64,000 nucleotides of DNA. Origin: a virus. A model generated the notes under the pieces. It had not been told where the DNA came from. It searched no databases and worked only from the letters and a program-made list of their open reading frames with translations. Where the stretch lies: positions 57,540 to 121,539 of IMG/VR virus record IMGVR_UViG_3300008108_000057; one strand, 5' to 3'. Position numbers and translations under genes: made by a program. Positions 3,103 through 62,189 of this stretch are shown here, one piece after another (the stretch's first letter is position 1; every line of letters starts with the position of its first letter).

Positions 3103-4062
3103 ATGCCAATCCCTGGCCCAGGTCAATCGTTACCAATAACTACAATTGCTACTGAGTTTGGTGGCACGGTACCGCATGAAATTAGTGAATATTATCGTGG
3201 GGGTGCTTTAGTACCTAATTCTCCCGGTACTGCTACTATTCCTACGAGCGGAACAATAGCATATTCAGATTTTTATAATACTTCAGCTACAACAAGAGTT
3301 GCAATACCTTTAGTGATTTCAGCGTCAACCGACAACTATAATGTATATACGAGTCGTGGACCAACTTATAATCCTGGTAATTCTGATATTACAGTCACAA
3401 TAAATCCAGGAGTAACTGTAGGAAGCTCAAGCACTCCTGCTTATGCATTTTCGGTGCCTTCAGAATTTTCTCCTGCTGACACTATAACTGTCATCAATAA
3501 TGGTCTAATTCAAGGTAAAGGAGGAGCTGGTGGTCGTGGTACTGGCTCAAGCTCAACGTCCTGTGCCGGTGCTGTTGGTGGTAATGCAATATTTGTTAAT
3601 AGACCAACAGTTATTACTAATAATGGTACTGTTGCAGCTGGAGGTGGCGGAGGTGGCGGAGGAGGAGCGAACTTCGTTCCTAGACCGGCCAAGTCAGGAG
3701 GACCAAGATATGCACTTGGTGGTGGCGGTGGCGGAGGAGCAAGTGCACCACCATCAGCAGGTGGTCCTCTAGGTCCTGGCCCATTTCCAGGAACGTCAGC
3801 AACGGTAGGTGGTCCAGGTACCAGTCCTGCTGGTGGTACTGGTGGTACTGGAGGAACAAGTCTTCCAGGGGTTGCAATTGGAGGTGCAGGTGGAGCTGGT
3901 GGTGGTAGAGGTGCTGCCGGTACTGCTGGCACAAACCGAACGTATGCACCAAACCCAGCCTTAGGCCTCGGCGGCGCAGGAGGAGCGGCTGGAAATTATA
4001 TCGTAGGTAATCCATTCGTAACTTGGCCAGTAACAGGTACCCGACAAGGTGGCGTAGCCTAA
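3103..4062 (+). CDS. Glycine-rich tail tip / adhesin-like structural protein
   Basis: 319 residues with an AAGGAG site 7 nt before the ATG. The first 45 residues (MPIPGPGQSLPITTIATEFGG) match the small-domain start seen in many marine T4-like virion proteins. The C-terminal half is a series of glycine runs (GGGGGGGGGA, GGGGGGGAS, GGAGGAGGGRG, GLGGAGGAAG) separated by short variable segments. That layout recalls the glycine-rich region of T-even gp38 adhesins, whose polyglycine helices carry variable receptor-contact loops. It directly follows the tail fibre gene, where gp38-type adhesins sit. The adhesin role is inferred from composition and position, not from clear sequence identity. Confidence 0.6.
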   Translation: MPIPGPGQSLPITTIATEFGGTVPHEISEYYRGGALVPNSPGTATIPTSGTIAYSDFYNTSATTRVAIPLVISASTDNYNVYTSRGPTYNPGNSDITVTINPGVTVGSSSTPAYAFSVPSEFSPADTITVINNGLIQGKGGAGGRGTGSSSTSCAGAVGGNAIFVNRPTVITNNGTVAAGGGGGGGGGANFVPRPAKSGGPRYALGGGGGGGASAPPSAGGPLGPGPFPGTSATVGGPGTSPAGGTGGTGGTSLPGVAIGGAGGAGGGRGAAGTAGTNRTYAPNPALGLGGAGGAAGNYIVGNPFVTWPVTGTRQGGVA

Positions 4063-4079
4063 TAAAAAAAAGGATTTAT

Positions 4080-4421
4080 ATGAACACACTTTATATGAAA
4101 ATACATCAATTTGAAGAACAGAGTCATTCTTTGATAGTATCATTTGCCTCAGATACGACAGAACATCAAGATCCGGATAAATATCCAGCATATGCTTATC
4201 AGCCGCTACATATGTGGCCAGGCGTAAATGACCCAGAAGAAATAAAAAAACGAATTGCAATTTCTGGAATGTATCACGCCGAGCAGCAAGAGCGTGAAGA
4301 AAAATTTGTTGCAGATTCAGCAAAAATACAACAGTATAAAGACATGATTGGACAGGTATCTTCATATTCTATAGAAGATTTGGCACCAACTACTCCTCCC
4401 GAATTTGTTATAGAGGTGTGA
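4080..4421 (+). CDS. Conserved-looking hypothetical protein
   Basis: 113 residues. The start at 4080 is chosen because AAAAGGA lies just upstream; the frame runs back to 4023 but that part overlaps the preceding gene's end. The protein is acidic and rich in Gln and Glu, with no recognised domain, signal or membrane segment. It sits between the adhesin-like gene and the neck genes, so a tail-related or fibre-assembly role is possible but unsupported. Confidence 0.6.
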   Translation: MNTLYMKIHQFEEQSHSLIVSFASDTTEHQDPDKYPAYAYQPLHMWPGVNDPEEIKKRIAISGMYHAEQQEREEKFVADSAKIQQYKDMIGQVSSYSIEDLAPTTPPEFVIEV

Positions 4422-25744: not shown

Positions 25745-26355
25745 GTGATATTATTAGAATTAGCACAGATGATCCATCTGGCACAAAAGTACAACAGGTT
25801 AAAGTATTAGAACTTGTACCAGAAAAATTTTCTATTCTAGATGAAGTAATGCCTGAATTTGATTTCAGTAATCCACCTACTGATCCAGTATTTCTCGCAT
25901 CACAATTGGTAGAAACTTGCATTTATCATAAAGGTCTTGGTCTATCTGCAAATCAATGTGGATTAAGATATAGAGTATTTGTGATGGGTGCAGGTAATGA
26001 TTATGTTGCACATTTCAATCCAAAAATTGTTAGTGTGTCTGAAGAAAAAGCACATATGGAAGAAGGATGCTTATCTTATCCATTGTTGTTCATTCACATT
26101 ACTAGACCAGAAAGTATTACTGTAGAATATCAAGACTTCAATGGTGAAAAAAAGACAGCAACATATTCGGGTATAACTGCTAGATGTTTTCAACATGAAC
26201 TTGACCACATGAATGGTGTTCGTTATACGAGTAAAGCAAAACCATTAGCACTACAAACAGCTAAGAAGAAAAAAGACAAACTAATTCACCGTTATAGGAA
26301 AGCAAATGAAAGATTGGCAGCACGGGTACGAACTGGATTACCTCAAATCGGTTGA
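25741..26355 (+). CDS. def: Peptide deformylase
   Basis: 204 residues. The three deformylase motifs are present: GLGLSANQ (65-72), EEGCLSYP (metal ligand Cys110) and QHELDHMNG (His152, Glu153, His156). The enzyme removes the formyl group from nascent proteins. Phage versions are common in marine T4-like phages and probably keep up with late protein synthesis. The C-terminal 45 residues form a Lys-rich helix; short phage deformylases often lack this, so the tail is a mild oddity. Confidence 0.92.
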   Translation: MSDIIRISTDDPSGTKVQQVKVLELVPEKFSILDEVMPEFDFSNPPTDPVFLASQLVETCIYHKGLGLSANQCGLRYRVFVMGAGNDYVAHFNPKIVSVSEEKAHMEEGCLSYPLLFIHITRPESITVEYQDFNGEKKTATYSGITARCFQHELDHMNGVRYTSKAKPLALQTAKKKKDKLIHRYRKANERLAARVRTGLPQIG

Positions 26356-27409
26356 ATCTCTTTACGCAGCATACAACAAGTTTGCAGATTCACCTTTTGC
26401 TGAATACAAGAAAAATAACATAGCAGAAGATTTACACAAAGGACATTTGCACATACATGCAGATGGCTCTTACGTTCAAACTAAAGTAAGTAAATCTTCT
26501 CCTATTACTATGTACCAAAACATAACGATTGGAACCAAAACACCAGGTGATTGTGTTATTACCAAGCTTCGTGGTACTGACGATTACATTGAAGATGTTT
26601 GTAAACAAGCAGAAGGTAATACTTGGTTATATGTTTGGGCTGAAGATAAAACTACCAGAATGATTGCACAAAACTACTTTGATTATGTCGGTAGTAAAAT
26701 TACAACATTTGGAGAAATCTATGGTATCTATTTTAAACAAGGACTAATACCAACAACATTTCCATTTGTTGACCCAGTAGAAAAGATTGCCATAAAACAG
26801 TTGCGTGTTCCTGTTAATTCTGATATTATAGAAAAAATTGCAGCTAGGTTGGAAAACCTAAATATTAAATTCCAAAATCATTATAGCAACTACAACAAGA
26901 AAAAATCTTGGTCTGCAATATCTCTGCGTGGCTATACACCAGATATTATGCGTATTGAAAAACCAGTTGAGATGAGTAAGAAATGGAAAGAGGAACACAA
27001 AGATGAAGAATTTTACTTACAAGATACATTCCTTCGCCAGGAGTTTCCAGAAGTTGAGAAACTCCTTAGTTTCTTGGGCGATGCGGAATTACATCGTATT
27101 AGATTTATGCGCCTTACTCCTGGCGGTGGTGAGCTTACCCGCCATACAGACCAAGTGGATCCAGATTCTGGTCTTAATATCAATAATTTGTCTAGGTTGC
27201 ATTTCCCTATCAGAACTAATTCAAAAGTTAAATTCGGGGTCTGGGAACCAACAGGAAATAAAAAAGAAGTAAACATGAGAGTTGGTGAGTGTTGGGTACT
27301 TGATACGAGAAAACCACACACGGTCATCAACGAAGGCGATGAAGATAGAATACATCTAGTTGTTGATGTAGTGACAGACAAAAATCTTAAAGAGACAATA
27401 TTATCATGA
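26306..27409 (+). CDS. Two-domain protein with aspartyl/asparaginyl beta-hydroxylase-like 2OG oxygenase domain
   Basis: 367 residues. The C-terminal half has a double-stranded beta-helix oxygenase pattern: RHTDQVD (His280, Asp282), a LHFPIRTNSKVKFG core and KPHTVINEGDEDRIHLV (distal His and 2OG-binding Arg). This is typical of the Asp/Asn beta-hydroxylase family (PF05118). The N-terminal 160 residues are unassigned, with a faint GNAT-like ending. The start lies 50 nt inside the deformylase gene. The 3' end overlaps the DNA methyltransferase by 4 nt, suggesting the two act together. Target unknown: a protein side chain or a modified base. Confidence 0.75.
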   Translation: MKDWQHGYELDYLKSVESLYAAYNKFADSPFAEYKKNNIAEDLHKGHLHIHADGSYVQTKVSKSSPITMYQNITIGTKTPGDCVITKLRGTDDYIEDVCKQAEGNTWLYVWAEDKTTRMIAQNYFDYVGSKITTFGEIYGIYFKQGLIPTTFPFVDPVEKIAIKQLRVPVNSDIIEKIAARLENLNIKFQNHYSNYNKKKSWSAISLRGYTPDIMRIEKPVEMSKKWKEEHKDEEFYLQDTFLRQEFPEVEKLLSFLGDAELHRIRFMRLTPGGGELTRHTDQVDPDSGLNINNLSRLHFPIRTNSKVKFGVWEPTGNKKEVNMRVGECWVLDTRKPHTVINEGDEDRIHLVVDVVTDKNLKETILS

Positions 27410-37826: not shown

Positions 37827-37911
37827 GGGTGTCGAGAAGCATTGGTGACTTCAGCAGACTGTAAATCTGTCGCCTTCGGCATACGGGGTTCGAATCCCTG
37901 GGCACCCACCA
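37827..37911 (+). tRNA. tRNA-Tyr(GTA)
   Basis: Class II tRNA with long variable arm (CGCCTTCGGC), anticodon loop CTGTAAA, encoded CCA. Confidence 0.93.
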
Positions 37912-37991
37912 AATAAAAGTATCAAAGGCTATATACAGAATACATTATTCGTACTTGAATTATTATCAAATTTTTTAGTGAAGGAATCCAA

Positions 37992-39236
37992 ATGAAAACT
38001 CGTGGATTAAATTATGGGGCCAGTGTTGGTCTTGAAGCATATGATATAGACTGGAACTCTAAAGAAGAAATTGATGAATTAGGTAGACTTTGTGCTAGTC
38101 AATGTATTGTTTTTGTCAATGAAAGAATACCTACTGAACAAGTATATAACATTATGACTCAATGGGGCGACTCAAGCCGAGCCCTTATACATGAATATGT
38201 TATTCAACGTAAAATTTCAGGTAGACATTGGAGAGAGATATTACTTAATTTAGGATATATCGCTAAGGATGCAGGGAAGGACATCAGTCCGGCAGTATCT
38301 ATGGTAAGTTATAAAAAGGATGATGATGGTCGTCCTCGAGGCATTTTCAGTAACGGTGAATTAGATTGGCATAGTGACCAATGTGCATTTGATGATGCAC
38401 AACGTATTATTGGTTTACAAAGTATAAGTGACACGGTAAACAGTCAAACAACATTTTTATGTACACATGATGCTTACGAATCGCTGAGTTCGGACATACG
38501 TAGCATGGTGAAGGAATTGATTGTAAAACACAAATGGGTTGATGGAGTCATGGCTCCGGGGTTGAACTATCTTCAAACCATGCTACTAAAATACAACATG
38601 GTGCCAATAGATGGAATGGAAACTCATTTGTATAGAGAAACCGCTACCGGGCGTCCTGGTATAAAATTTCCATCACATACATTTAATGGATTTGTTGGCA
38701 TGTCGTTAGAAGAAAGCCATAGAGTCATGAATGAGTTAAAGAAAGAAGTTTATCAAGACAAATACGTATATACTCAGAACTGGCAAGATGGTCAAATTGT
38801 TTTTATGGATCAAGAAATTACATTACATGCTAGACCAACTAATGTTAGTGATGGTGATAAAAGAACTATGGCAAGAGTAATTACTTATTTAAATCATCTA
38901 TATCCAGAAAATAAATTAGCTACTCATGTAAGATTTAAAGGAAAAATGATTAGTCATGATGATTTTGCCAAACTAGTGGATGCTGATAGATCATACAAAT
39001 TTGAACAAGAACAAAAACTCAAAGAGATAATTTCAAAACAGTTCAAGGTAGTCGATAATAGACTTGATACCTGTACTAATTTAATTTCGGAGCTTGACGC
39101 CGACAGTCTTGATTTACTAGAATTAGTGCTTTCCATTGAAAGACAATTCAAAATTGAGATCGACGAATATGATACAAAAGATGTACGCACATTCGGAAAA
39201 ATTTTAGAATTGATACAGTCTAAAACTTCAAATTAA
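37992..39236 (+). CDS. TauD/TfdA-type 2OG dioxygenase fused to an acyl carrier protein domain
   Basis: 414 residues with AAGGAA before the ATG. Residues 1-330 form a TauD-like oxygenase: iron motif WHSD (His127, Asp129), distal His279 and the arginine region DKRTMARV (291-295). Residues about 340-410 are an acyl carrier protein: LDADSLDLLELV holds the phosphopantetheine serine Ser372, followed by the helix ERQFKIEI. Such fusions suggest hydroxylation or desaturation of a carrier-bound acyl or aminoacyl group. The gene stands alone between tRNA-Tyr and tRNA-Ala. No synthetase or transferase partner is adjacent, so host enzymes would have to load it. Confidence 0.85.
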   Translation: MKTRGLNYGASVGLEAYDIDWNSKEEIDELGRLCASQCIVFVNERIPTEQVYNIMTQWGDSSRALIHEYVIQRKISGRHWREILLNLGYIAKDAGKDISPAVSMVSYKKDDDGRPRGIFSNGELDWHSDQCAFDDAQRIIGLQSISDTVNSQTTFLCTHDAYESLSSDIRSMVKELIVKHKWVDGVMAPGLNYLQTMLLKYNMVPIDGMETHLYRETATGRPGIKFPSHTFNGFVGMSLEESHRVMNELKKEVYQDKYVYTQNWQDGQIVFMDQEITLHARPTNVSDGDKRTMARVITYLNHLYPENKLATHVRFKGKMISHDDFAKLVDADRSYKFEQEQKLKEIISKQFKVVDNRLDTCTNLISELDADSLDLLELVLSIERQFKIEIDEYDTKDVRTFGKILELIQSKTSN

Positions 39237-39243
39237 CATACTA

Positions 39244-39317
39244 GGGGGATTAGTTAAATGGGATAACATCGGCTTTGCAAGCCGAGATTAACAGTTCGAT
39301 TCTGTTATCCTCCACCA
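39244..39317 (+). tRNA. tRNA-Ala(TGC)
   Basis: Anticodon loop TTTGCAA in TCGGC/GCCGA, T arm AACAG-TTCGATT-CTGTT, encoded CCA. It starts 7 nt after the preceding gene's stop. Confidence 0.93.
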
Positions 39318-39348: not shown

Positions 39349-40092
39349 ATGAAGAAATTAGTTTTTACTTTAGCTTTACTACTATCAACCAATGTATCAT
39401 CCGCAACAACCTTTGTTTATAATGTAACAAAAGATGAAGTAGTACATGAATACGCATCCGAAAGAGTAAGACCAATTGCAAGTGTTACAAAATTGATGAC
39501 TGCGATTGTTGTTATTGAAAGTGGTGCATCATTGAATGGAAAAGTTTCTTACAGAGGTTTCTTAGGTAAGAAAGAATTGAGTAGAGAAGAATTATTAAAG
39601 TTGCTATTGGTTAAAAGTGACAATCAAGCCGCTGAGGCTTTAGCAAAAGCATACTCAGGTGGTAGAAGTGGTTTCATTGCTAACATGAATCACAAAGCAG
39701 AACAGTTAGGAATGGTTCATACTTCCTATGAAGATCCTTCTGGCATAGGAAGAAAGAATATAAGTACCGCAAGAGACATATCAATATTGTTAAATTATTC
39801 ACACAATTTTGATACAATGAAAAATCTTGCAGCACTTGAAAATGTGAAATTTACGAAACAATCAAAGAGAAAAAAGAAACAATCTTTGATGGTAGTTAAT
39901 AATACAAATTACAATTTACTGAAAGAATACAAAGAGATTGAGATATCTAAAACTGGCTTTACTAATGCTGCTGGCAAATGTCTTGCAATGCTCTTGACAA
40001 AAAATGGTGAAAAATATACAATAGTAATTCTTGGTGAAAGAAATACTAGAGATGTACAAAGAGTAGGTAGAAAGATTATTGAAACATTATAG
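39349..40092 (+). CDS. Secreted S11 peptidase (D-Ala-D-Ala carboxypeptidase family)
   Basis: 247 residues. A cleavable signal peptide (KKLVFTLALLLSTNVSSA) is followed by the three penicillin-binding active-site motifs: SVTK (Ser45, Lys48), SDN (90-92) and KTG (201-203). The family trims peptidoglycan stem peptides in the periplasm. At this length it lacks the PBP5 C-terminal domain and membrane anchor. It may remodel the wall or act in lysis or superinfection exclusion. The stop's last base is the first base of tRNA-Thr. Confidence 0.88.
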   Translation: MKKLVFTLALLLSTNVSSATTFVYNVTKDEVVHEYASERVRPIASVTKLMTAIVVIESGASLNGKVSYRGFLGKKELSREELLKLLLVKSDNQAAEALAKAYSGGRSGFIANMNHKAEQLGMVHTSYEDPSGIGRKNISTARDISILLNYSHNFDTMKNLAALENVKFTKQSKRKKKQSLMVVNNTNYNLLKEYKEIEISKTGFTNAAGKCLAMLLTKNGEKYTIVILGERNTRDVQRVGRKIIETL

Positions 40093-40256: not shown

Positions 40257-41198
40257 ATGATAAAAGTTCCTATTTACAATTCTTCTGGAGTTGCAATTGA
40301 TGAATTGATCATCAATGATGACGTTGAGTACATTCCAGATAGTAGAGTATATAAAGGCAAAAATTGCTATTACAAAGGCATAGGAGTACCATATTTTTTT
40401 CATGCTATTTTAGATGTAAATAACGATGAATATGAGAATATTGGAAAACATCCCGTTTTCTATTCGGGATATTATGTTGTAAAAAAATGTTTTAAAAATA
40501 AAACTGGAATATTTCAAGAAAGATTTCAACCATTTTTTTCTGACTTCATAGGAACTTGCGGTGTTAAAGAAGGAACCGTAGTACTAAATTCAATGTCGTT
40601 TGAGAAATCTTCTGTTGAGATTTTAGATTGTATAAACTACGATAAAGAGAATGACCAGTATTATTATTTGATGAATTATAATTGCGATAGAAAATCGTAT
40701 TTAACTGACGAAGAAGATCCAAAAAAACTAAGAGAACTTTTAGATTACATGATAATTAGTGATTGGAATTTCCTTTGGGATAAAGTTGCTATTAAAGATA
40801 TAAGTAATAAAGGAACAGTAAGTGATGTTGCAGACCTGTTTGTTTCGAATACACTTTCTCACAAAATAGGAACAGTATATTCTGTATTGTATAGTCTTGC
40901 GAAAAAAGATTCTGGAAAATATTTTAAGTTTTTGAATGTGAATAATTTGCAGCACATTGACGATCGGTCTTTTGTTTTCAATGCTATTGAAATCTTACGG
41001 GTGAACAATGTTGATGTGAGTGAATTATTTAAATATGACACAATTAATCAAGTCTACAAAAACATAGTAATAAATTATCTTGTAACTGGAAAAAATTGTG
41101 CATATTGTGCATGTGATCTATACAAAGATCAAGGTGAAGGAATAAAAGATCAATATGTTGAATTAACTAAAAACCAATTAACGGATATTATAATATAA
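40257..41198 (+). CDS. Hypothetical protein between tRNA-Gly and tRNA-Pro
   Basis: 313 residues, starting 13 nt after tRNA-Gly with no clear ribosome site, which suggests weak translation or a different start. Rich in Asp, Asn, Tyr and Lys, and more AT-rich than its neighbours. Cys residues cluster at GKNCAYCACDLY near residue 283. No signal peptide, membrane helix or known domain is recognised. Its base composition suggests a recent arrival in the array. Confidence 0.7.
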   Translation: MIKVPIYNSSGVAIDELIINDDVEYIPDSRVYKGKNCYYKGIGVPYFFHAILDVNNDEYENIGKHPVFYSGYYVVKKCFKNKTGIFQERFQPFFSDFIGTCGVKEGTVVLNSMSFEKSSVEILDCINYDKENDQYYYLMNYNCDRKSYLTDEEDPKKLRELLDYMIISDWNFLWDKVAIKDISNKGTVSDVADLFVSNTLSHKIGTVYSVLYSLAKKDSGKYFKFLNVNNLQHIDDRSFVFNAIEILRVNNVDVSELFKYDTINQVYKNIVINYLVTGKNCAYCACDLYKDQGEGIKDQYVELTKNQLTDIII

Positions 41199-41291: not shown

Positions 41292-41888
41292 ATGAATTTA
41301 AAAAACTTTATTAAAGAAGTTCCAAACACTCTTTCTAATGAAATGTGTGATTACTTCATTGATTTCTATGATACACATATGGAATCTGCTCAAAGATTTG
41401 AAGGTAGAAATCGGAGATGGCAGCCAACATTTAACCAAATCGTGTATACAGACTTTTTCTACAATACACCATATTGGAAACCAAATGAAAGAATAACCAA
41501 TGAAGTTGCTAGAGATATTAATGATCAAGCATACAAATATGTAAATGAACTTGGATTAGAAAAAACGTTTCCACCAAATCCTCTTAATGAAAAATTAAGA
41601 GTTAAAAAATATTTACTCAATGGAGAAGATGAATTTCCTTTGCATATTGATGCTTACTCTCAAGAAGCAGGATCAAGATTTTTATCCATGTTTGTATATT
41701 TGAACGACATAGAAGAAGGCGGCCATACAGCATTTCCAAGTTTAGGTGTTTCAATAAAACCAGAGAAAGGTAAGTTAGTAATATTTCCTTCTAATTGGAT
41801 GTTTCCTCATATCGGAGAAAAACCAATTTCAGGAGAAAAATATTTGCTGTCAACGTACTTACATTATTCTCCGTATTCAGAATCTTAG
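41292..41888 (+). CDS. Prolyl-4-hydroxylase-like 2OG-Fe(II) oxygenase
   Basis: 198 residues. LHIDAYS (His118, Asp120), FPHIGEKPISGEK (His173, Lys183) and the VYLNDIEEGGHTAFP core are the P4H-type oxygenase motifs. Marine T4-like phages frequently carry this family; proposed targets include protein prolines and nucleic acid, none established here. It stands alone between tRNA-Pro and tRNA-Met, 14 nt after the former. Confidence 0.88.
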   Translation: MNLKNFIKEVPNTLSNEMCDYFIDFYDTHMESAQRFEGRNRRWQPTFNQIVYTDFFYNTPYWKPNERITNEVARDINDQAYKYVNELGLEKTFPPNPLNEKLRVKKYLLNGEDEFPLHIDAYSQEAGSRFLSMFVYLNDIEEGGHTAFPSLGVSIKPEKGKLVIFPSNWMFPHIGEKPISGEKYLLSTYLHYSPYSES

Positions 41889-53509: not shown

Positions 53510-54220
53510 ATGAGTGCAGTGGTAATTATTCCGACTACTGGAGCTGATACAGTAAAACGCTCCATTGAAAGTGTTTTATCCCAAACCTATCCGACAACTT
53601 GTTATGTTGTCTGTGATGGTAATCAATTCAGAGGTAAAGTCAAAGTTATTGTTGACAACTACCTATCAAATAAAAATATTAAACTCTGTTTCTTGCCAGA
53701 CAACGTAGGTGCTAATGGATTCTATGGCCATAGAGTTTATGCTGCGTTCTCCCATTTAGTTAATGAAGATTACGTTATGTTTCTGGATCAAGATTGTTGG
53801 TTTGAAGATAATCATGTTCAGTCCTGCGTGAACACAATTCAATCTAAAGAATTAGATTGGACGTATTCTTTGAGAAAAATTACCGACAAAGATGGAAACT
53901 TCTATTGTAATGATGACTGTGAAAGTCTTGGTAAATGGATAGCATGGACAAATACACACCATATTGACACAAATAGTTATTGCGTTCGTCGTGAAATCCT
54001 GATAAGATTAGCATCTACGTGGCATGGTGGGTGGGGTCAAGATAGAGTGTTCTTCAATACAATAGCAACCAACTTTCAGAAGTGGGATTGTACAAGAAGA
54101 TACACAGTCAACTACAGAGTTGATGGTAATGCAGGTTCTGTGACAAAAGGATTCTTTGATCAAGGTAATAAAGTGATGCATGATTTTTATAAAGGAAAAC
54201 TTCCTTGGCAAGACAATTGA
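53510..54220 (+). CDS. Glycosyltransferase family 2
   Basis: 236 residues. AVVIIPTTGADTVKRSIESVLSQ is the GT2 nucleotide-binding start, and YVMFLDQDCWFED carries the DxD-type metal site (DQD). GGWGQDRVFF supplies the likely acceptor/catalytic acidic residue. It opens an eleven-gene cassette of sugar genes with short overlaps. The cassette probably builds or alters a surface glycan, by inference. Confidence 0.88.
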   Translation: MSAVVIIPTTGADTVKRSIESVLSQTYPTTCYVVCDGNQFRGKVKVIVDNYLSNKNIKLCFLPDNVGANGFYGHRVYAAFSHLVNEDYVMFLDQDCWFEDNHVQSCVNTIQSKELDWTYSLRKITDKDGNFYCNDDCESLGKWIAWTNTHHIDTNSYCVRREILIRLASTWHGGWGQDRVFFNTIATNFQKWDCTRRYTVNYRVDGNAGSVTKGFFDQGNKVMHDFYKGKLPWQDN

Positions 54221-54996
54221 TAGTAGGTAAAACTAGTTTTATTGGTAATGAACTAGCTAAACTGAAAAATTTTGATATTGTAGCATACAAAGATATTCAT
54301 CATGTTGACTTTTCTCAATATGATGGCGTTATCAATTGTGCATTGAATCCTGTGTTTAAAACTCAAACATATGATGAAAAAATTGATGTTGATTATGAGA
54401 TAGCAAAACTTGCGTATGAAAATAATTGCCATTATGCAATGATTTCAACCAGAAAGGTTTATGGATCATCATCAGAACTGAAAACATATACAGAAGAAAG
54501 TCCTACAAATCCATTTGACTTCTATAGTGAAAACAAATTGATTTGTGAGAATAAAATTCTAAATGAGTTTGGGGATAAAGCAGTCATAGTCAGAGGATCT
54601 AATTTGTTTGGATTTGAATTGGGTAGGCAATCTTTCATGGGCTTCTGTATGGATCAATTGAAGCACAGTGAAAAGATTGTATTTTCAATTAGCGAAAAAA
54701 CAAAAAGAGACTTTATTGATGTGACTACATCAGCATGTATGTTAGATAAAATTTTAAGAAGAAAATTGACAGGAATATATAATTTAAGTTCTAACTATGG
54801 TCTTGAAATAGGCAAAGTAGCAAAACATTTAATTCGTGGTTATGGTAAAGGTGAGTTTTTATGTACCAGTGATGTTGTCAAAGAGCAGTTCATCATAGAC
54901 AACACAAAACTAATCAAACAGCTCAAACTTATTTCTCACCCATTTTATATCACAGGTATCATTGAAAATTTAGGAGAAGAATTGTGCAAGATATGA
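54205..54996 (+). CDS. NAD-dependent epimerase/dehydratase (SDR)
   Basis: 263 residues from a TTG start at 54205 with AAAGGA 9 nt upstream; a TTG at 54217 is an alternative. GKTSFIGNELA is the Rossmann-type dinucleotide loop, with an unusual Lys-Thr in place of Gly-rich GxxGxxG, and FYSENK provides the YxxxK catalytic pair with ISTRKVYGS before it. Probably a nucleotide-sugar epimerase or reductase. It overlaps the GT2 gene by 16 nt. Confidence 0.82.
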   Translation: MARQLIVGKTSFIGNELAKLKNFDIVAYKDIHHVDFSQYDGVINCALNPVFKTQTYDEKIDVDYEIAKLAYENNCHYAMISTRKVYGSSSELKTYTEESPTNPFDFYSENKLICENKILNEFGDKAVIVRGSNLFGFELGRQSFMGFCMDQLKHSEKIVFSISEKTKRDFIDVTTSACMLDKILRRKLTGIYNLSSNYGLEIGKVAKHLIRGYGKGEFLCTSDVVKEQFIIDNTKLIKQLKLISHPFYITGIIENLGEELCKI

Positions 54997-55832
54997 TCAT
55001 TAGTGCCGTGTCGGAATACAAGTACGACAGAATGAAACATTGGGTGAACTCAATCAAGAAGTGCGGATTTAAAGGTAGAATCGCAGTCGTTGCATTTAAT
55101 ATCACAGACAATACAATTAGGAAACTAAAATATGAAGGTGTTGAGGTTTACTTAACAACAAATCAAAGAAACGAAAAAGATGATGGATACTTGTACGCAA
55201 ACGGAATAACTTATCACGTACCAATGCTTAGACATTATTTTTATTGGGCAATATTGTCTCAAATGAAAGACATTCGTTATGTCATTTCTACAGATATATC
55301 TGATGTTGTATTTCAACTAGATCCTTCTGTGTGGTTAGAAAATCATCTCGGCGATAAAAAATTAAATTATGGATGTGAAGGTCTATTGTACAAAGACGAA
55401 ACATGGGGAAATCAAAACATGATGGAATGTTTTCCTCAACTATATCATCACATGAAGGACAGACCGATCTACAATGCCGGATCAATGGCTGGCGAGTTTG
55501 AGATGTTTAAAAACTTTTCATTAGCTGTTTCTTTGGCTATTAACAATATTCCACATCCAACTCCAGATCAAGCTGGTGTTAATGCTATGTTATCAATCGA
55601 ACCATATCACTCACTTACCAAGTTCAATGACCACGATACAAATTGGGCATGTGAATGTGGGACTACTGTAGACCCAAATAAAATAGAACGATTCAGACCC
55701 CATCTATTGAGTCCTGAGCCTATCTTTGATGGGGAGTATGTGTATACAAGTAAAGGCGAGAAATATGTAATGGTACACCAATATAATAGAGTGCCAGAAT
55801 GGAAAGAAAAGATTGAGAAAAAATATGGATAA
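54984..55832 (+). CDS. Glycosyltransferase-like protein
   Basis: 282 residues from GTG at 54984, supported by GGAG 7 nt upstream; an ATG at 54993 is the alternative. ISTDISDVVFQLDP has the D-x-S-D form of a GT-A metal site, PTPDQAGVNAML is a typical later acidic block, and VMVHQYNR a final His motif. These fit nucleotide-diphospho-sugar transferases acting on surface glycans. No family was named with confidence. Confidence 0.72.
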   Translation: MQDMIISAVSEYKYDRMKHWVNSIKKCGFKGRIAVVAFNITDNTIRKLKYEGVEVYLTTNQRNEKDDGYLYANGITYHVPMLRHYFYWAILSQMKDIRYVISTDISDVVFQLDPSVWLENHLGDKKLNYGCEGLLYKDETWGNQNMMECFPQLYHHMKDRPIYNAGSMAGEFEMFKNFSLAVSLAINNIPHPTPDQAGVNAMLSIEPYHSLTKFNDHDTNWACECGTTVDPNKIERFRPHLLSPEPIFDGEYVYTSKGEKYVMVHQYNRVPEWKEKIEKKYG

Positions 55833-56649
55833 TGATATTTCAGTAGTTACAGCATTCTATGATATTGGTAGAGGTAATCTACCAAAAGTAAAACATGGTA
55901 GAGAGTTACCATTCTATCAGCATAGAAGTGTAAATCAATATTTTGATTTTTTCAGTAACCTAGCTAAACTTCAAAACGAAATGGTGATTTACACAACACC
56001 CGATTTTGAAGATAAAGTTAAAACTATCAGAAAAAATGTTGGGTTGGAAGAACTGACGAAAGTTGTTATTGCAGATTCATACCTACCCGAAAGATATGAA
56101 CTAATTAAACCTATGGTTCAAAAGGTAATGGATGATCCCGCATATTATGGTAAAGTGGTGAATCCTCAACTGATTGAATATTGGCATGCCGATTATGTTC
56201 TTGTCAATATTTTTAAAGCCTGGTATGTTACTGATGCAATTGAGAAAGGTCTGATAAGTAATGATCTTACTGCATGGATAGATTTTGGTTATGTTCGTGA
56301 TGATAAAACAATACCAGCATCAAATCGTTGGACTTATAATTTTGATCGTGAGAAAATTCATTTCTTCAATCAATATACTATACACAAAGAAAGACCGATT
56401 GACAATATAATCTATACAGGTGATGTTTACATTCAAGGATGTCATATTGTAGCAGGAACAAAGAAATGGGAACTTCTTAAGCAATTGGTTCTCAAAAATC
56501 TAGAAGTTCTATTACAAAATAATTTAATTGATGATGATCAAACATTATTGCTCATGTCGTATCTGACAAGCCCACAAGATTTTCAGTTACATATTGCTGA
56601 TCCAAACGATTGGTTTAGAATCTTTAGAATATTTAATGATCAAATATGA
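55825..56649 (+). CDS. HtrL/YibB-type protein
   Basis: 274 residues from ATG at 55825; an upstream in-frame start at 55813 lies within the previous gene. SVVTAFYDIGRGNLP and the MVIYTTPDFEDKVK pattern match the HtrL/YibB family (PF09612), seen in lipopolysaccharide regions and thought to be glycosyltransferases. AWIDFGYVRD holds the probable D-x-G metal region. It overlaps the previous gene by 8 nt. Confidence 0.82.
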   Translation: MDNDISVVTAFYDIGRGNLPKVKHGRELPFYQHRSVNQYFDFFSNLAKLQNEMVIYTTPDFEDKVKTIRKNVGLEELTKVVIADSYLPERYELIKPMVQKVMDDPAYYGKVVNPQLIEYWHADYVLVNIFKAWYVTDAIEKGLISNDLTAWIDFGYVRDDKTIPASNRWTYNFDREKIHFFNQYTIHKERPIDNIIYTGDVYIQGCHIVAGTKKWELLKQLVLKNLEVLLQNNLIDDDQTLLLMSYLTSPQDFQLHIADPNDWFRIFRIFNDQI

Positions 56650-57386
56650 TTAAAATATATTCGCCAAGAATTCATAATCTGGGAGATTTTATGCATTGTC
56701 TCCCAGCATTATCGGGTCTACATAAAAAACTAAAGTATAAATTCTCATTTGTCATTTGTGATAGGCTAGAAAGATTTGTTGGTATAAAAGAATTATTGAT
56801 GCAGCAAGAGATGTTTGCTGAAGTAAAATTCATGCATGAAGAAACTATGATTGCTGAAAGATATATTCTATTGGATGATATTGGTGAGGAGAAACAACAT
56901 GGTAACAGTCCAATAGCATGTCATAGATTTTATAATTTCATCAGAGATAATTACAAAATAGATTTTGATATTGATGATGATTTTGAATTAAAAGTGCCAA
57001 AACTAGATATAGACTTTCAAACAGACAAGTTAATCATTGGTGATAGATGGTCATCTAGAGATGCACCAGATGTTGATACTAGAAGATATTCTAATCTTAT
57101 AGAAAGTGCAGAAATTGTACCAAAAGAAAAAGCATTATATCTTGACTATAAAAAAGATTTAATATATAATTGTTCTCTAATTAAGCATAATCCAAATCCA
57201 TTTATTACCACATTTACTGGAATAGGTATTGTTGCCGATTTGATGAAAAAAGATTGTTACATTTTGTGGGATGAAGATATACGAAACTGGCAAGGTTGGG
57301 GTGTAGAACAAGATTATAAACTACACTACTATCAAGATAGAAAATCAAAACTTGTTTATATAAGAGATTTTAAGTATGATAATTAA
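56646..57386 (+). CDS. GT9/heptosyltransferase-like protein (first of two)
   Basis: 246 residues. IYSPRIHNLGDFMHCLPALSGLHKKL is the start of GT-B enzymes such as heptosyltransferases (GD-x-x-x-x-LP). The C-terminal sugar-nucleotide site is less clear than in the next gene, so it may be catalytically weak. It overlaps the neighbouring genes by 4 and 11 nt. Confidence 0.65.
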   Translation: MIKIYSPRIHNLGDFMHCLPALSGLHKKLKYKFSFVICDRLERFVGIKELLMQQEMFAEVKFMHEETMIAERYILLDDIGEEKQHGNSPIACHRFYNFIRDNYKIDFDIDDDFELKVPKLDIDFQTDKLIIGDRWSSRDAPDVDTRRYSNLIESAEIVPKEKALYLDYKKDLIYNCSLIKHNPNPFITTFTGIGIVADLMKKDCYILWDEDIRNWQGWGVEQDYKLHYYQDRKSKLVYIRDFKYDN

Positions 57387-58080
57387 TGTTCCTTTAGGCG
57401 CATTTGGTGGCCCTCTCAGAAATGGTGATATTGTTGCTGTAGCAAATGTCGTTGAATATCTTAGAAAAGTAGAAGATAAAAATATAAAATTCCATCTTTT
57501 ACCTAACTCTGTGTCATCAGCAGATTACTGTCAGAAATTTTTAAAGTTTATGTTAGAGAATACAGATTATTTCTCTGATAACGCAGGTGAAAAAGAACTT
57601 TCATGGAAAAATATTAATCTTTGGGATTTTAGAGGATTATCTGGTGATTTAGTGAGAATCCCAAATAATAAAAAGCAAGAAAAGAAGATAGTTATCTGTC
57701 CTTTATTTAATGCCCAATACAACACATACAGAAATTGGCCAAAACATATTTTTGAAAAAATGCTTGAGAGATTTAAGAGCGAAGCATATTCGGATTATAG
57801 AAAAATCATTTGTACAGAAGAAACTATAGGCCACATTGATGGGTGGGAAGAATCTACAGATTTTCTAGAAAATTTAGATCACATAATGACAAGTGAAATA
57901 TTCTTTGGGGGTGATACTGGAACTAGTCACTTTGTTGGTGCATTAGAAAGTGGACCAGGTGAAATATTATATTTCTATTCTGGTCATGGTCTTATTCACA
58001 CAACTCCTTTCTACTCTACCTTAGGAAAAGGAAGAGTCATTCAGTACTGGCATAACTTTGAACAAGCAACTTGGAGTTAA
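57376..58080 (+). CDS. GT9/heptosyltransferase-like protein (second of two)
   Basis: 234 residues. LGAFGGPLRNGDIVAVANVVEYL is the N-terminal half pattern, VICPLFNAQYNTYRNWPKHIFEKML resembles the GT-B C-terminal half start, and FFGGDTGTSHFVGAL corresponds to the G-x-D-S-G-x-x-H acceptor motif of heptosyltransferases. It probably adds a sugar to a lipopolysaccharide-like acceptor. Confidence 0.72.
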   Translation: MIINVPLGAFGGPLRNGDIVAVANVVEYLRKVEDKNIKFHLLPNSVSSADYCQKFLKFMLENTDYFSDNAGEKELSWKNINLWDFRGLSGDLVRIPNNKKQEKKIVICPLFNAQYNTYRNWPKHIFEKMLERFKSEAYSDYRKIICTEETIGHIDGWEESTDFLENLDHIMTSEIFFGGDTGTSHFVGALESGPGEILYFYSGHGLIHTTPFYSTLGKGRVIQYWHNFEQATWS

Positions 58081-58081
58081 T

Positions 58082-58789
58082 ATGAGAATTAAATTATTCA
58101 GTCACATGGTTGACATTGGTTGTGGAAAAGATATTACAGTAGAACAAACAGAGCTACTAGAAAAAACAGGTTTGCTTGATGCTGTTGAACACGCATATTT
58201 CTTTGCACACTTTGATAGAGATAACTATTCCTGGTTAGAAGAAAGATGGAAAGACAGAAAGAACGTTGATATTCTACATTATAATCAAGATTATCAGCCT
58301 TGGTATGAGGCAACTTCAGTAAACTATTTGCAAGAATATTGTCATGAAAACGATGAAGAATTTTATGTTTGCTTCATGACACACAAAGGAGCAAGTCATG
58401 GTCCTGGTGGTCATCAAAACTGGCGAAGATATATGCAATACTGGAATATAGAGAAATGGAAAGACTGTGTTGCAAAGCTTGATGAAGGTTATGACATGTG
58501 TGGTGCTGCATTTTTAAATAACCCGCCACATCCTTTTTATGCGGGTAACTTTTTCTGGGCAAAAGCATCATATCTAAGGAAGTGTCGTAGACTAAAAACT
58601 CCACCAGAAAATATGTTCAAGCCACAATTTGAAGAACAACCACACCATCGTTTTGATCTTGAATGTTGGCATGGTAGTGGTGCACCTAATGCATATGATA
58701 TGCATCCTGGGGAAACAAATCGATGGTATTTACCTCCAGAAACATACCGAGATGATATGGAAGAAACCTTTACTTACAGAACAGTATGA
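58082..58789 (+). CDS. Glycosyltransferase-like protein with YAGNFFWAKASYL motif
   Basis: 235 residues from ATG at 58082 (1 nt after the preceding stop). PFYAGNFFWAKASYLRKC is a block I associate with a family of bacterial and phage sugar transferases, and FYVCFMTHKGASH is a nearby strand. The C-terminus is His/Trp-rich (CWHGSGAPNAYDMHPGETNRWY). Substrate unknown. It overlaps the next gene by 4 nt. Confidence 0.68.
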   Translation: MRIKLFSHMVDIGCGKDITVEQTELLEKTGLLDAVEHAYFFAHFDRDNYSWLEERWKDRKNVDILHYNQDYQPWYEATSVNYLQEYCHENDEEFYVCFMTHKGASHGPGGHQNWRRYMQYWNIEKWKDCVAKLDEGYDMCGAAFLNNPPHPFYAGNFFWAKASYLRKCRRLKTPPENMFKPQFEEQPHHRFDLECWHGSGAPNAYDMHPGETNRWYLPPETYRDDMEETFTYRTV

Positions 58790-59427
58790 ACGATACGGCA
58801 ATCATAGTTACCTCTTATTGTGGAGGTAATTTTCAAGAAGAAAAAAGAAAAATGACTAAGACAATCTGTAAAATGTTGTCTGAAAAAGGTCATTATGTTA
58901 TTCTTACTACACACTCACCTGTAGACGTTGATACACAAAATTATTGTGATGTATTTGTTTATGATAAAGACAATAGATTTTCTTTTGATGACGTTCCACA
59001 AAGAACGACAAATCATGGTGTCGCAGAGTTGACACTTATGAGAAATGCAGTAAAATTAATACCTGAAAATTTCAAATATCTACTGAAGATGGCATATGAT
59101 AATAAGCCAGATTTAGATTATCATGATATCATACAGAAGTGTAAAGAAACTAATAAGAAAGCGGTCACAGCAAAATGGGGTAACGATATTACGTTAGGAA
59201 CTCAGATGTATTTTTCTGAGATTGCATTCTTTAGAGAAACATTATCAATGAATGAATTATGGCGATGCGAAAAAGACTTAGAATATGTTTGGTATGATTC
59301 TGTAAAAGATAAAAACTTATTAGATCAAGTGCATGTACTAGACCTATACAGAAACTTCTTTGGCCATGATGTTCTTCAATATGCTCATGCAGCAGGAACT
59401 TTTGTAGATCACTATCCATATGATTAG
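58786..59427 (+). CDS. Glycosyltransferase-like hypothetical protein
   Basis: 213 residues. AIIVTSYCGG starts a Rossmann-like strand and LLKMAYDNKPDLD may hold a divergent metal site. ITLGTQMYFSEIAFFRETL is typical of the middle of transferases in this cassette. Identity is inferred from context and pattern. Confidence 0.6.
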   Translation: MNDTAIIVTSYCGGNFQEEKRKMTKTICKMLSEKGHYVILTTHSPVDVDTQNYCDVFVYDKDNRFSFDDVPQRTTNHGVAELTLMRNAVKLIPENFKYLLKMAYDNKPDLDYHDIIQKCKETNKKAVTAKWGNDITLGTQMYFSEIAFFRETLSMNELWRCEKDLEYVWYDSVKDKNLLDQVHVLDLYRNFFGHDVLQYAHAAGTFVDHYPYD

Positions 59428-60091
59428 TTTAACTTGTATTGATGCCTTAGATTACGAACCAACAATTCGTGCAATACGAAGCACGATCAAGTGTATTCCT
59501 ATAAGCAGAGTATATTGGTTTAGTGATGTTAATCTAATCTCGGATGAGTTTCCTGTAACTTGGATAAAAATAAACAAATTCAAACGATATACTGATGAAT
59601 ATAATTTTATAACCTTGAAATTAGTACCTCATGTTGTTACTGAACCATACAACATAATAATTCATGCTGATGGATTTGCTGTAAATCGGAGTGCATGGGA
59701 TGAACAATTCTTAAATTATGATTATATTGGCGCCAGATGGAATAATGGCATGGTAGGTAATGGTGGATTCTGTCTGAGAAGTAGAAAACTATACGATGCT
59801 TTACTGAATCTAGATGTTAAGTACAAAACATCAGATTATTCACAAGAAGTAATAGATAATTCGGAGCACTATGTGTTTGATGCATATGGTGATAAAGTGA
59901 TTCCTGAAGATAATATTATCTGCAAGATACATAGAAAAGAACTTGAAGAAAATTATGGTATTAAATTTGCTGAAGGTGACATTGTAGACAAATTTAGCAT
60001 AGAACATAATACGTCATCTTCTTGGTTAGGTAGAAGTTTAGGATTTCATGGTAAACATGGAATAGCAAAACATTATGGAGTTGAGTTATGA
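59420..60091 (+). CDS. DUF5672-type glycosyltransferase-like protein
   Basis: 223 residues. FLNYDYIGARWNN, MVGNGGFCLRSRKLYDALL and VIPEDNIICKIHRKEL are the blocks of the DUF5672 family, which has a GT-A-like fold and is usually found among surface-sugar genes. HADGFAVN contains the D-x-x pattern. It overlaps the previous gene by 8 nt. Confidence 0.8.
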   Translation: MISLTCIDALDYEPTIRAIRSTIKCIPISRVYWFSDVNLISDEFPVTWIKINKFKRYTDEYNFITLKLVPHVVTEPYNIIIHADGFAVNRSAWDEQFLNYDYIGARWNNGMVGNGGFCLRSRKLYDALLNLDVKYKTSDYSQEVIDNSEHYVFDAYGDKVIPEDNIICKIHRKELEENYGIKFAEGDIVDKFSIEHNTSSSWLGRSLGFHGKHGIAKHYGVEL

Positions 60092-60105
60092 TATGGAGAA
60101 ATTAA

Positions 60106-61386
60106 ATGACACCAAATGAAATGATTGAAGCACTATCAAAATCAGTGCAACCAAAGTATGTGAAAAATTATGATAATTATCAAGAAGGCCAGTTTGTGCA
60201 GTATTCTGGTCAACTTTGGGATCATAACGAAATACGAGTAGCACTAGACGCACTTCTAAATGGTGCATGGATTGTTTCTGGAGAAAAAGTATCTGAATTT
60301 CAAGATGCTTTTAGTAAAAGATTCAATGTCAAATATTCCCATATGGTGAACTCAGGTAGTTCAGCAAATCTTGTGATGGTGACTGCTGCTAAAAAATATT
60401 ACAAGTGGCAAGACGGCGATGAGATTATTGTTTCTCCTGTCGGGTTCCCAACAACTATTGCACCTATTATTCAAAATGGAATGAAACCAGTTTTCATTGA
60501 CATTGAACTTGAAACATTAAATTTTGATGTTAGTAAAATTGAAGAAAAGATCAATTCAAAAACAAGAGCAATTTTTGTATCTCCTGTTTTGGGTAATCCT
60601 CCAAACATGGATGTGATTGTTGACATATGCAATAAACATGGTCTTACTTTACTTGGTGATAACTGTGATTCGCTAGGCTCACTTTGGAATGGAAGATTAA
60701 TTACAGACTACTATGATACATGGACAACATCATTCTATCCTGCTCACCATATTAGCACAGGTGAAGGTGGTATGGTATGTTCAGATAACGAAGATTTCAT
60801 CAAAGAAGCAAGAAGCATTTCATGGTGGGGTAGAGATTGCTACTGTGTAGGATCAAACAATCTATTAGAATGTGGCACTTGTGGTAAACGATTTGACAAT
60901 TGGCTTGAGAATTACGATGGTATTATTGATCACAAATATCTGTTTACAAACATCGGATATAATCTAAAACCTCTTGATCTTCAAGGTGCTATTGGTCTTG
61001 AGCAATTGAAAAAGTTTGATATGCTTGAAAGTAAACGCAGAGAATATAAAGAAACTATTCAAAAATACATTGAAGATAATATCCCTGGTGCAAGAGTTAT
61101 TAATGCTACAGAAAACTCAGATCCTTCTTGGTTTGGTGTTCCCATCTATTGCGAATCACAAGAGATGAAAGAGTTGCTAGTATCTCATTTTGAATCCAAT
61201 AAAGTTCAAACTAGAAACTACTTTAGCGGGAATATTCTTTTACATCCAGGATACAAACATCTAGATGATTATAAGAATTATCCCAATTCGAATCTAGCTT
61301 TAAGTAATGTATTCTTTATCGGTTGCTCTCCTCTATACAACGAAAAGATTTTGAACTATATTGAGAAGGTATGTCAAAAATGGTAA
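60106..61386 (+). CDS. rfbH: RfbH-type CDP-4-dehydro-6-deoxyglucose 3-dehydrase
   Basis: 426 residues. It is of the DegT/DnrJ aminotransferase fold, but FYPAHHISTGEGG has His (His214/215) where ordinary aminotransferases have the PLP-binding Lys, the mark of the RfbH/E1 dehydrase. The cysteines C187, C245, C247 and C256 (WWGRDCYC, then ECGTC) sit with spacing close to the C-x57-C-x1-C-x7-C iron-sulphur motif I recall for E1. It would remove the C3 hydroxyl of a CDP-sugar on the way to 3,6-dideoxyhexoses. Partner reductase E3 is not seen in the window. Two SDR genes in the cassette could finish the sugar. Confidence 0.9.
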   Translation: MTPNEMIEALSKSVQPKYVKNYDNYQEGQFVQYSGQLWDHNEIRVALDALLNGAWIVSGEKVSEFQDAFSKRFNVKYSHMVNSGSSANLVMVTAAKKYYKWQDGDEIIVSPVGFPTTIAPIIQNGMKPVFIDIELETLNFDVSKIEEKINSKTRAIFVSPVLGNPPNMDVIVDICNKHGLTLLGDNCDSLGSLWNGRLITDYYDTWTTSFYPAHHISTGEGGMVCSDNEDFIKEARSISWWGRDCYCVGSNNLLECGTCGKRFDNWLENYDGIIDHKYLFTNIGYNLKPLDLQGAIGLEQLKKFDMLESKRREYKETIQKYIEDNIPGARVINATENSDPSWFGVPIYCESQEMKELLVSHFESNKVQTRNYFSGNILLHPGYKHLDDYKNYPNSNLALSNVFFIGCSPLYNEKILNYIEKVCQKW

Positions 61387-62189
61387 ACGTTCTTGGTGCT
61401 GGATTTGTTGGTGGTAGATATGCTGAACTAACTAAAAATGTAATTGTCAATGATAGAAATGATTATGAAGTGAAATCAAATGAAGTTCTTTATTTCATCT
61501 CTACAATTGACAATTATAATGTATTCACAAATCCATATATTGACATTGAAACAAATCTAACAACATTGATAAAGACTTTAGAATCATGTAAAGACAAAGA
61601 TGTTACTTTCAATTTCATTAGTTCTTGGTTTGTATATGGAAATGTAGATTTGCCGGCAAAAGAATCTGCTTATTGTGATCCGAAAGGATTCTACAGCATA
61701 ACCAAACGAACAGCAGAGCAACTTCTCATTTCATATTGTGAAACGTTCAACATTAAGTACAGGATTCTCAGACTAGCAAACGTTTTAGGAGAATCTGACC
61801 ACAAGGTATCTAAAAAGAAGAATGCTCTGCAATACATGATCAATGAACTGAAAGCAGGAAACACAGTTTCGTTGTATGATGGTGGTGAAGCATATAGAGA
61901 CTATATCTATGTTGACGATGCGGTTCGTGCTATTAATCTAGTATTGCAAAAAGGAAAAGTCAACGAAATCTATAATATTGGTAATGGCGTTCCAGTCAGG
62001 CTGGTAGATGCTATTAACTATGCTGCCACAAAGTTGAGTTCATCATCTAATGTGGAAACTATTGAAACCGCAGCATTTCATAAGGTGGTACAAACCACAA
62101 ACATGGTCCTTGATATTACCAAAATTAAGAGTCTGGGCTATGTACAAACTAAGTCAGTTTATGATATTATGGACAAATTAATCGTATAA
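61371..62189 (+). CDS. NAD-dependent epimerase/dehydratase (SDR)
   Basis: 272 residues. VNVLGAGFVGGRYAEL is a clean Rossmann loop, FYSITKRTAEQLL the YxxxK catalytic segment, RDYIYVDDAVRAINLVL the typical sugar-epimerase block and IYNIGNGVPVRLVD the C-terminal motif. ATG at 61371 is favoured, though 61380 is also possible. It overlaps rfbH by 16 nt and is likely to act on its product, for instance as a 4-reductase or epimerase. Confidence 0.88.
   Translation: MSKMVNVLGAGFVGGRYAELTKNVIVNDRNDYEVKSNEVLYFISTIDNYNVFTNPYIDIETNLTTLIKTLESCKDKDVTFNFISSWFVYGNVDLPAKESAYCDPKGFYSITKRTAEQLLISYCETFNIKYRILRLANVLGESDHKVSKKKNALQYMINELKAGNTVSLYDGGEAYRDYIYVDDAVRAINLVLQKGKVNEIYNIGNGVPVRLVDAINYAATKLSSSSNVETIETAAFHKVVQTTNMVLDITKIKSLGYVQTKSVYDIMDKLIV

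Follow-up and report, generated by a model that had tools for sequence, protein, structure and literature searches.

Biosynthetic gene clusters are a known source of oxygenase-plus-carrier proteins. SyrB2/SyrB1-type enzymes are separate proteins inside an NRPS cluster. In that type of system SyrB1 presents the substrate as a carrier thioester, and HctB, the hectochlorin halogenase, has its hexanoyl substrate tethered to its own acyl carrier protein (ACP) (PMC6218459). In viruses, phage ACPs and TauD-like genes have figured among the auxiliary genes without an explanation since at least 2010, and the Prochlorococcus phages P-HM1 and P-HM2, only these two among the cyanophages compared, are annotated with a taurine dioxygenase, an ACP and its "synthetase" (PMC3037559). 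Each of the two genes is known from phages on its own, and what we describe here is not new chemistry. No description of a phage fusion of the two, or of a cassette holding both, was found in the literature searched, most subscription journals being outside its scope.

The gene considered here encodes such a fusion. It lies in a window of 64,000 nucleotides from an IMG/VR virus record (IMGVR_UViG_3300008108_000057), and the whole record (163,380 bases, about 163 kb) has T4-like genes; its source is a freshwater T4-like phage. Like HctB (PMC6218459), the phage protein unites a 2-oxoglutarate (2OG)-Fe(II) active site with an ACP on a single chain, although HctB is chlorinating and has three domains, while the phage protein has a His-X-Asp motif, has no third domain and is phage-encoded. 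The likeness to SyrB2/SyrB1-type enzymes is in the presentation of the substrate as a carrier thioester, as we propose for the phage fusion, but there the carrier and the enzyme are separate and here they are one chain. A trait of carrier-tethered 2OG halogenases, an oxygenase that shares its chain or operon with the carrier, is found as the fusion in this phage and as a cassette in its relatives. The plasmid locus of Methylomagnum ishizawai (NZ_AP019785.1) has a free ACP gene followed immediately by a homologous oxygenase (36% identity, 45% of the query covered), but the latter is unfused, has His-X-Asn in place of His-X-Asp, and has an NRPS. The dioxygenases of P-HM1 and P-HM2 are only 26-33% identical to the fusion oxygenase, and P-HM2 has no ACP annotated within 9 kb of its dioxygenase.

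A TauD-ACP fusion gene

The initial annotation read this open reading frame as a TauD-like oxygenase with a C-terminal ACP domain, and both Pfam profiles match it above their cut-offs. PHROGs assign the front half of the fusion to "taurine catabolism dioxygenase" and the tail to another family, "acyl carrier protein". We considered the possibility that the fusion is an artefact of assembly, and this was ruled out because the same fusion occurs in two more metagenome assemblies (contigs L002 and L024, making three with the window), with an identical protein and scattered SNPs. The DNA of these contigs is 99.8-99.96% identical to the window, from which they differ by 14 nucleotides in 10.5 kb and by 16 in 14.2 kb. 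The features of the gene and its flanks are collected in Table 1.

Table 1. Features of the fusion gene and its immediate flanks, in window coordinates
Feature	Position	Strand	Remarks
tRNA-Tyr, upstream neighbour	37827..37911	+	ARAGORN
Ribosome-binding site AAGGA	37981..37985	+	6 nt 5' of ATG; read from sequence
TauD-ACP fusion gene	37992..39236	+	414 aa, ATG start; identical protein in L002, L024
TauD/TfdA 2OG-Fe(II) oxygenase region, residues 1-338	37992..39005	+	PF02668; phage relatives end near residue 338
Predicted iron ligands His127, Asp129 (WHSD)	38370..38378	+	H127 in 38/38, D129 in 31/38 (alignment A5)
Predicted iron ligand His279	38826..38828	+	38/38 homologues
Arg291 to Arg295, predicted 2-oxoglutarate binding	38862..38876	+	Both arginines 38/38
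Acyl carrier domain, residues 341-407	39012..39212	+	PF00550 over cut-off; PDB ACP chains, best 2ehs E 1.4e-9
Ser372, predicted 4'-phosphopantetheine attachment site	39105..39107	+	DSL/DSI serine invariant in 8 aligned ACPs
tRNA-Ala, downstream neighbour	39244..39317	+	ARAGORN

Judged by its sequence, the oxygenase is a complete one of TauD/TfdA type, with the predicted catalytic residues all present. A profile search of the front half against TauD, proposed earlier as a check, gave PF02668 over its curated cut-off (residues 27-296; 66.3 bits, cut-off 27; E about 3e-18 to 5.4e-18), and among solved sequences those closest to it are 2,4-D or taurine dioxygenases. The catalytic residues assigned in the initial annotation hold up as well: His127, His279, Arg291 and Arg295 are invariant in 38 homologues, and Asp129 is present, seven distant marine homologues having Asn at that position. 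Most blocks of the AlphaFold model in the oxygenase region have a pLDDT over 85. Aligned with VIA-align to TauD, AtsK and RdpA, the model gives Z values of 18-21 (about 20) over about 250 residues, a TauD-like jelly-roll fold. The usual halogenase site is without the Asp ligand. A halogenase is disfavoured here, since position 129 is Asp and not Ala or Gly, and the enzyme is predicted to be a hydroxylase instead.

The acyl carrier domain is also intact in sequence. The search of the C-terminal part against ACP families, again a check proposed earlier, matched PF00550 over its curated cut-off, with 32.8 bits against 20.8 (residues 341-407, E 8e-8 in the full protein) and an E value of 3.3e-9 when the last 81 residues were scanned alone. 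The phosphopantetheine serine, previously noted as intact, is Ser372 in DADSLDLLEL, and the tail retains D-S-L-D-x-x-E, the pattern seen in E. coli AcpP. NCBIfam ACP models match the tail at 5.5e-16, below their curated cut-offs; the best score of 58 bits does not reach the 71 of the AcpP equivalog/subfamily level, and the domain is not classed as AcpP. The nearest solved sequences to the tail are ACPs. The linker between the two domains is short. The ACP part of the AlphaFold model has low confidence (pLDDT 48-72), with a helix beginning directly after Ser372; it is poorly modelled because MAFFT misplaced the ACP rows, which were absent from the folding alignment, and so the ACP fold rests on the profile match and not on the model.

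A second, unrelated kind of phage ACP fusion turned up in two viral contigs, at L148:4924-6213 and L159:4798-6501, where RIIB lysis-inhibitor-like proteins (PHROG 609, E 6e-62 and 8e-51) have an ACP domain with the DSL serine intact.

Relatives of the oxygenase and a three-gene cassette

The oxygenase alignment, run against viral contigs, hit 62 loci, most of the records being fragments. Among the relatives checked no ACP fusion was found beyond the near-identical L002 and L024; the other proteins end soon after residue 338. Six independent phage contigs (L025/L026, L029, L030 (=L007), L036 (=L014), L037 and L055) instead have three genes in the order TauD, hexapeptide acyltransferase, ACP, with 690-1414 bases from the TauD stop to the ACP start and, in L037, one extra opposite-strand open reading frame between acyltransferase and ACP. 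Their oxygenases are 61-70% identical to that of the fusion. This cassette shares with the fusion the oxygenase family and the ACP clade, but it consists of three separate genes, where the window has two of them fused and is without the acyltransferase. Among 80 viral ACP loci examined, the only ones with such a TauD nearby were loci of this oxygenase family.

When 69 ACPs, the Methylomagnum one not among them, were placed in a tree, the fused ACP formed a clade with the six free ACPs of the cassettes and with no others. The support of 95/90 is to be read as moderate, as the alignment has few columns and the fused ACP sits on a long branch. Pairwise BLAST, like the tree, puts the fused ACP nearer the six free ACPs; by bit score against leave-one-out profiles of the six, it ranks only 46th of 89. 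Because the fused ACP branches with the six free ones, the fusion probably joined genes of a pre-existing cassette, the acyltransferase having been lost in this phage.

The ACP-linked state is scattered over the oxygenase tree, with at least five changes. Many close relatives (62-70% identical) have no ACP nearby, and no ACP match was found in L044, a 124 kb record with such a TauD, so that a phage ACP is not required for the oxygenase to be kept. In phages of this kind the oxygenase may use a host ACP or a different substrate.

To the NeuD/PglB/VioB subfamily of sugar acyltransferases the hexapeptide protein of the cassette has matches of 1e-20 to 1e-24, which fall short of the cut-off, and it has weaker ones to the acyl-ACP-using LpxD and LpxA. 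In L055 a radical SAM/SPASM gene adjoins the ACP gene, and radical SAM proteins are also encoded in L036 and L025, that of L036 being most like B12-dependent methyltransferases. An S-adenosylhomocysteine hydrolase (Pfam) is encoded two bases 3' of the ACP gene in L037 (8695-9981), and its homologue in L029 (4229-5515) is upstream of TauD. Together the S-adenosylhomocysteine hydrolase and radical SAM genes at these other loci hint at methylation chemistry.

Other neighbourhoods of related oxygenases also hold acyl-handling genes. These associations were found by inspecting neighbours, the ACP tree being the one source of formal support. In L018 a MaoC-type dehydratase precedes the oxygenase and a 4HBT thioesterase follows it. 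In the distant marine phages L067-L073 the oxygenase is preceded, at a distance of a few hundred bases, by a ketoacyl synthase gene, and two of these records have ACP matches elsewhere. In the TauD genes of L067-L073 and in the Methylomagnum homologue (L178:9650-10714), His-X-Asn replaces the His-X-Asp iron motif. On the Methylomagnum plasmid the genes for ACP, TauD, radical SAM and NRPS follow one another. In Cycloclasticus (L078) an ACP gene overlaps the TauD start, with a divergent MBOAT O-acyltransferase gene alongside; this ACP is outside the phage clade in the ACP tree. The Cycloclasticus TauD homologue (L078:3392-4416) is in two open reading frames (3392-3637 and 3682-4416), which may reflect a frameshift or a sequencing error. 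In two cyanobacterial genomes the oxygenase adjoins a lipid A-type acyltransferase gene, near a radical SAM gene and glycosyltransferases. Cellular relatives are rare: the one already known remained the only one when 369 genomes from its class and 398 from its phylum were sampled, and two of 386 cyanobacterial genomes have a relative, one of them known before.

Surroundings in the window and the record

The fusion gene is located within an array of 25 tRNAs found by ARAGORN, in agreement with the setting described earlier. The association looks incidental, because L005, L008, L011, L013 and L017 retain the gene at loci where no tRNA was found, and a tRNA-linked function was ruled out as the main reading on the same grounds. 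Two other open reading frames share the array. The product of 39349-40092 has a likely signal peptide and a D-alanyl-D-alanine endopeptidase match (PBP7-like, E 1e-45, below the equivalog cut-off), and 40257-41198 encodes 313 amino acids with no Pfam, NCBIfam or PHROGs match. Two further 2OG-type oxygenase genes, a 2OG-FeII_Oxy_3 gene and an Asp/Asn beta-hydroxylase-like gene, are present in the window (41292-41888 and 26306-27409).

It was noted at the outset that no fatty-acid or peptide-synthesis genes adjoin the fusion, and the searches made recognised none, either in the window or elsewhere in the 163 kb record. As a statement about biosynthetic context, this is right for the window and does not extend to the relatives, whose oxygenases adjoin acyl or glycan genes and, in one bacterium, an NRPS cluster. 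A Pfam search of the record, which is possibly incomplete, found no match to the ACPS family of phosphopantetheinyl transferases, so that the dependence on a host holo-ACP synthase suggested in the initial annotation would apply if the domain is active. In the same possibly incomplete record, Pfam Hexapep and single-sequence phmmer searches found no hexapeptide acyltransferase, and phmmer queries with ketoacyl synthase, radical SAM, MBOAT, LpxL-like, MaoC and 4HBT sequences were all without a match; neither an NRPS nor a thioesterase was recognised there. Glycan genes of the window, such as the RfbH-like gene at 60106-61386 and a family 2 glycosyltransferase gene at 53510-54220, are at least 14 kb from the fusion, and are only suggestive with respect to a use on surface glycans. 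They belong to a series of glycosyltransferase-like and nucleotide-sugar genes (53510-62189, the RfbH-like gene included), which suggests phage-made sugars.

Possible functions of the fusion protein

Good evidence, in the form of the fusion itself, the adjacent-gene cassette and the shared ACP clade, points to the oxygenase and the ACP acting together. We lean towards reading the protein as a 2OG-Fe(II) oxygenase of the carrier-tethered type, with an acyl or aminoacyl thioester as the substrate that it hydroxylates. A host holo-ACP synthase would place 4'-phosphopantetheine on Ser372, and a host enzyme, or an unrecognised phage one, would load an acyl or aminoacyl group. The oxygenase domain would then hydroxylate the thioester-bound group using 2-oxoglutarate, O2 and Fe(II), and a transferase would pass the oxidised group to an acceptor. 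In the six related phages this transferase would be the NeuD/PglB-like hexapeptide acyltransferase encoded between TauD and ACP; as no gene for it was found in the phage of the window, that phage would have to rely on an acyltransferase of the host or on one of its own that went unrecognised. A carrier-bound acyl or aminoacyl substrate is favoured because carriers, acyltransferases and thioester enzymes recur as neighbours. As the end use we favour a putative change to a glycan or lipid of the cell surface or the virion, a reading based on the NeuD-like, lipid A-type and MBOAT neighbours in relatives. Points against the carrier-tethered reading are that searches of the record, which may be incomplete, yielded no acyltransferase of this type, ketoacyl synthase or ACPS, that many close relatives have no ACP nearby, that the linker is short and that the ACP part of the model has low confidence.

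Other readings of the two domains deserve consideration. The record holds no recognisable loading or transfer enzyme, and ACP domains also occur in unrelated phage proteins, the RIIB-ACP fusions of L148 and L159, so ACP may be a general phage adaptor. The domain might then be a docking tag, binding a host enzyme that recognises holo-ACP (a lipid A acyltransferase, for example), with the oxygenase acting on the lipid or glycan of that enzyme. We consider this rather unlikely, as mere docking does not need the phosphopantetheine serine, which is retained, and as six relatives have the ACP as a separate gene by an acyltransferase, as expected of a carrier. We give a similarly low likelihood to the idea that the oxygenase acts on a free small molecule, protein, glycan or nucleic acid and that its ACP tail is a neutral by-product of gene fusion. 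In its favour, an ACP in cis is not seen in the majority of the family, one large record has no ACP at all, and the best structural matches include the free-substrate enzymes TauD, AtsK and RdpA. The intact ACP serine and recognition pattern argue against it, and so does the recurrence of the acyl-carrier association in phages, Cycloclasticus and Methylomagnum.

An isonitrile-type pathway, in which a TauD-like oxidase such as ScoE or Rv0097 works with an ACP and an NRPS, appears very improbable. ScoE and Rv0097 are among the structural matches (Z about 19), and the bacterial relative in an ACP-TauD-NRPS cluster is in keeping with such a pathway, but these Z values are tied with those of generic TauD enzymes, ScoE is absent from the sequence matches of the family profile, and the record has no recognised NRPS or thioesterase.

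Significance

The fusion and the cassette turn two vague annotations into one testable enzyme. Returning to the carrier-tethered oxygenase, we tentatively extend it to the aquatic T4-like phages, which might carry a compact mobile acyl-tailoring cassette (ACP, 2OG oxygenase, NeuD-like acyltransferase and sometimes a B12 radical SAM protein). Its product would be an oxidised acyl group destined for glycans of the surface or the virion, and in the phage studied here the cassette would have been condensed into one enzyme with its own substrate arm. If this is true, phages run carrier-dependent tailoring chemistry like that of biosynthetic gene clusters, possibly altering the surface of the host or of the virion.
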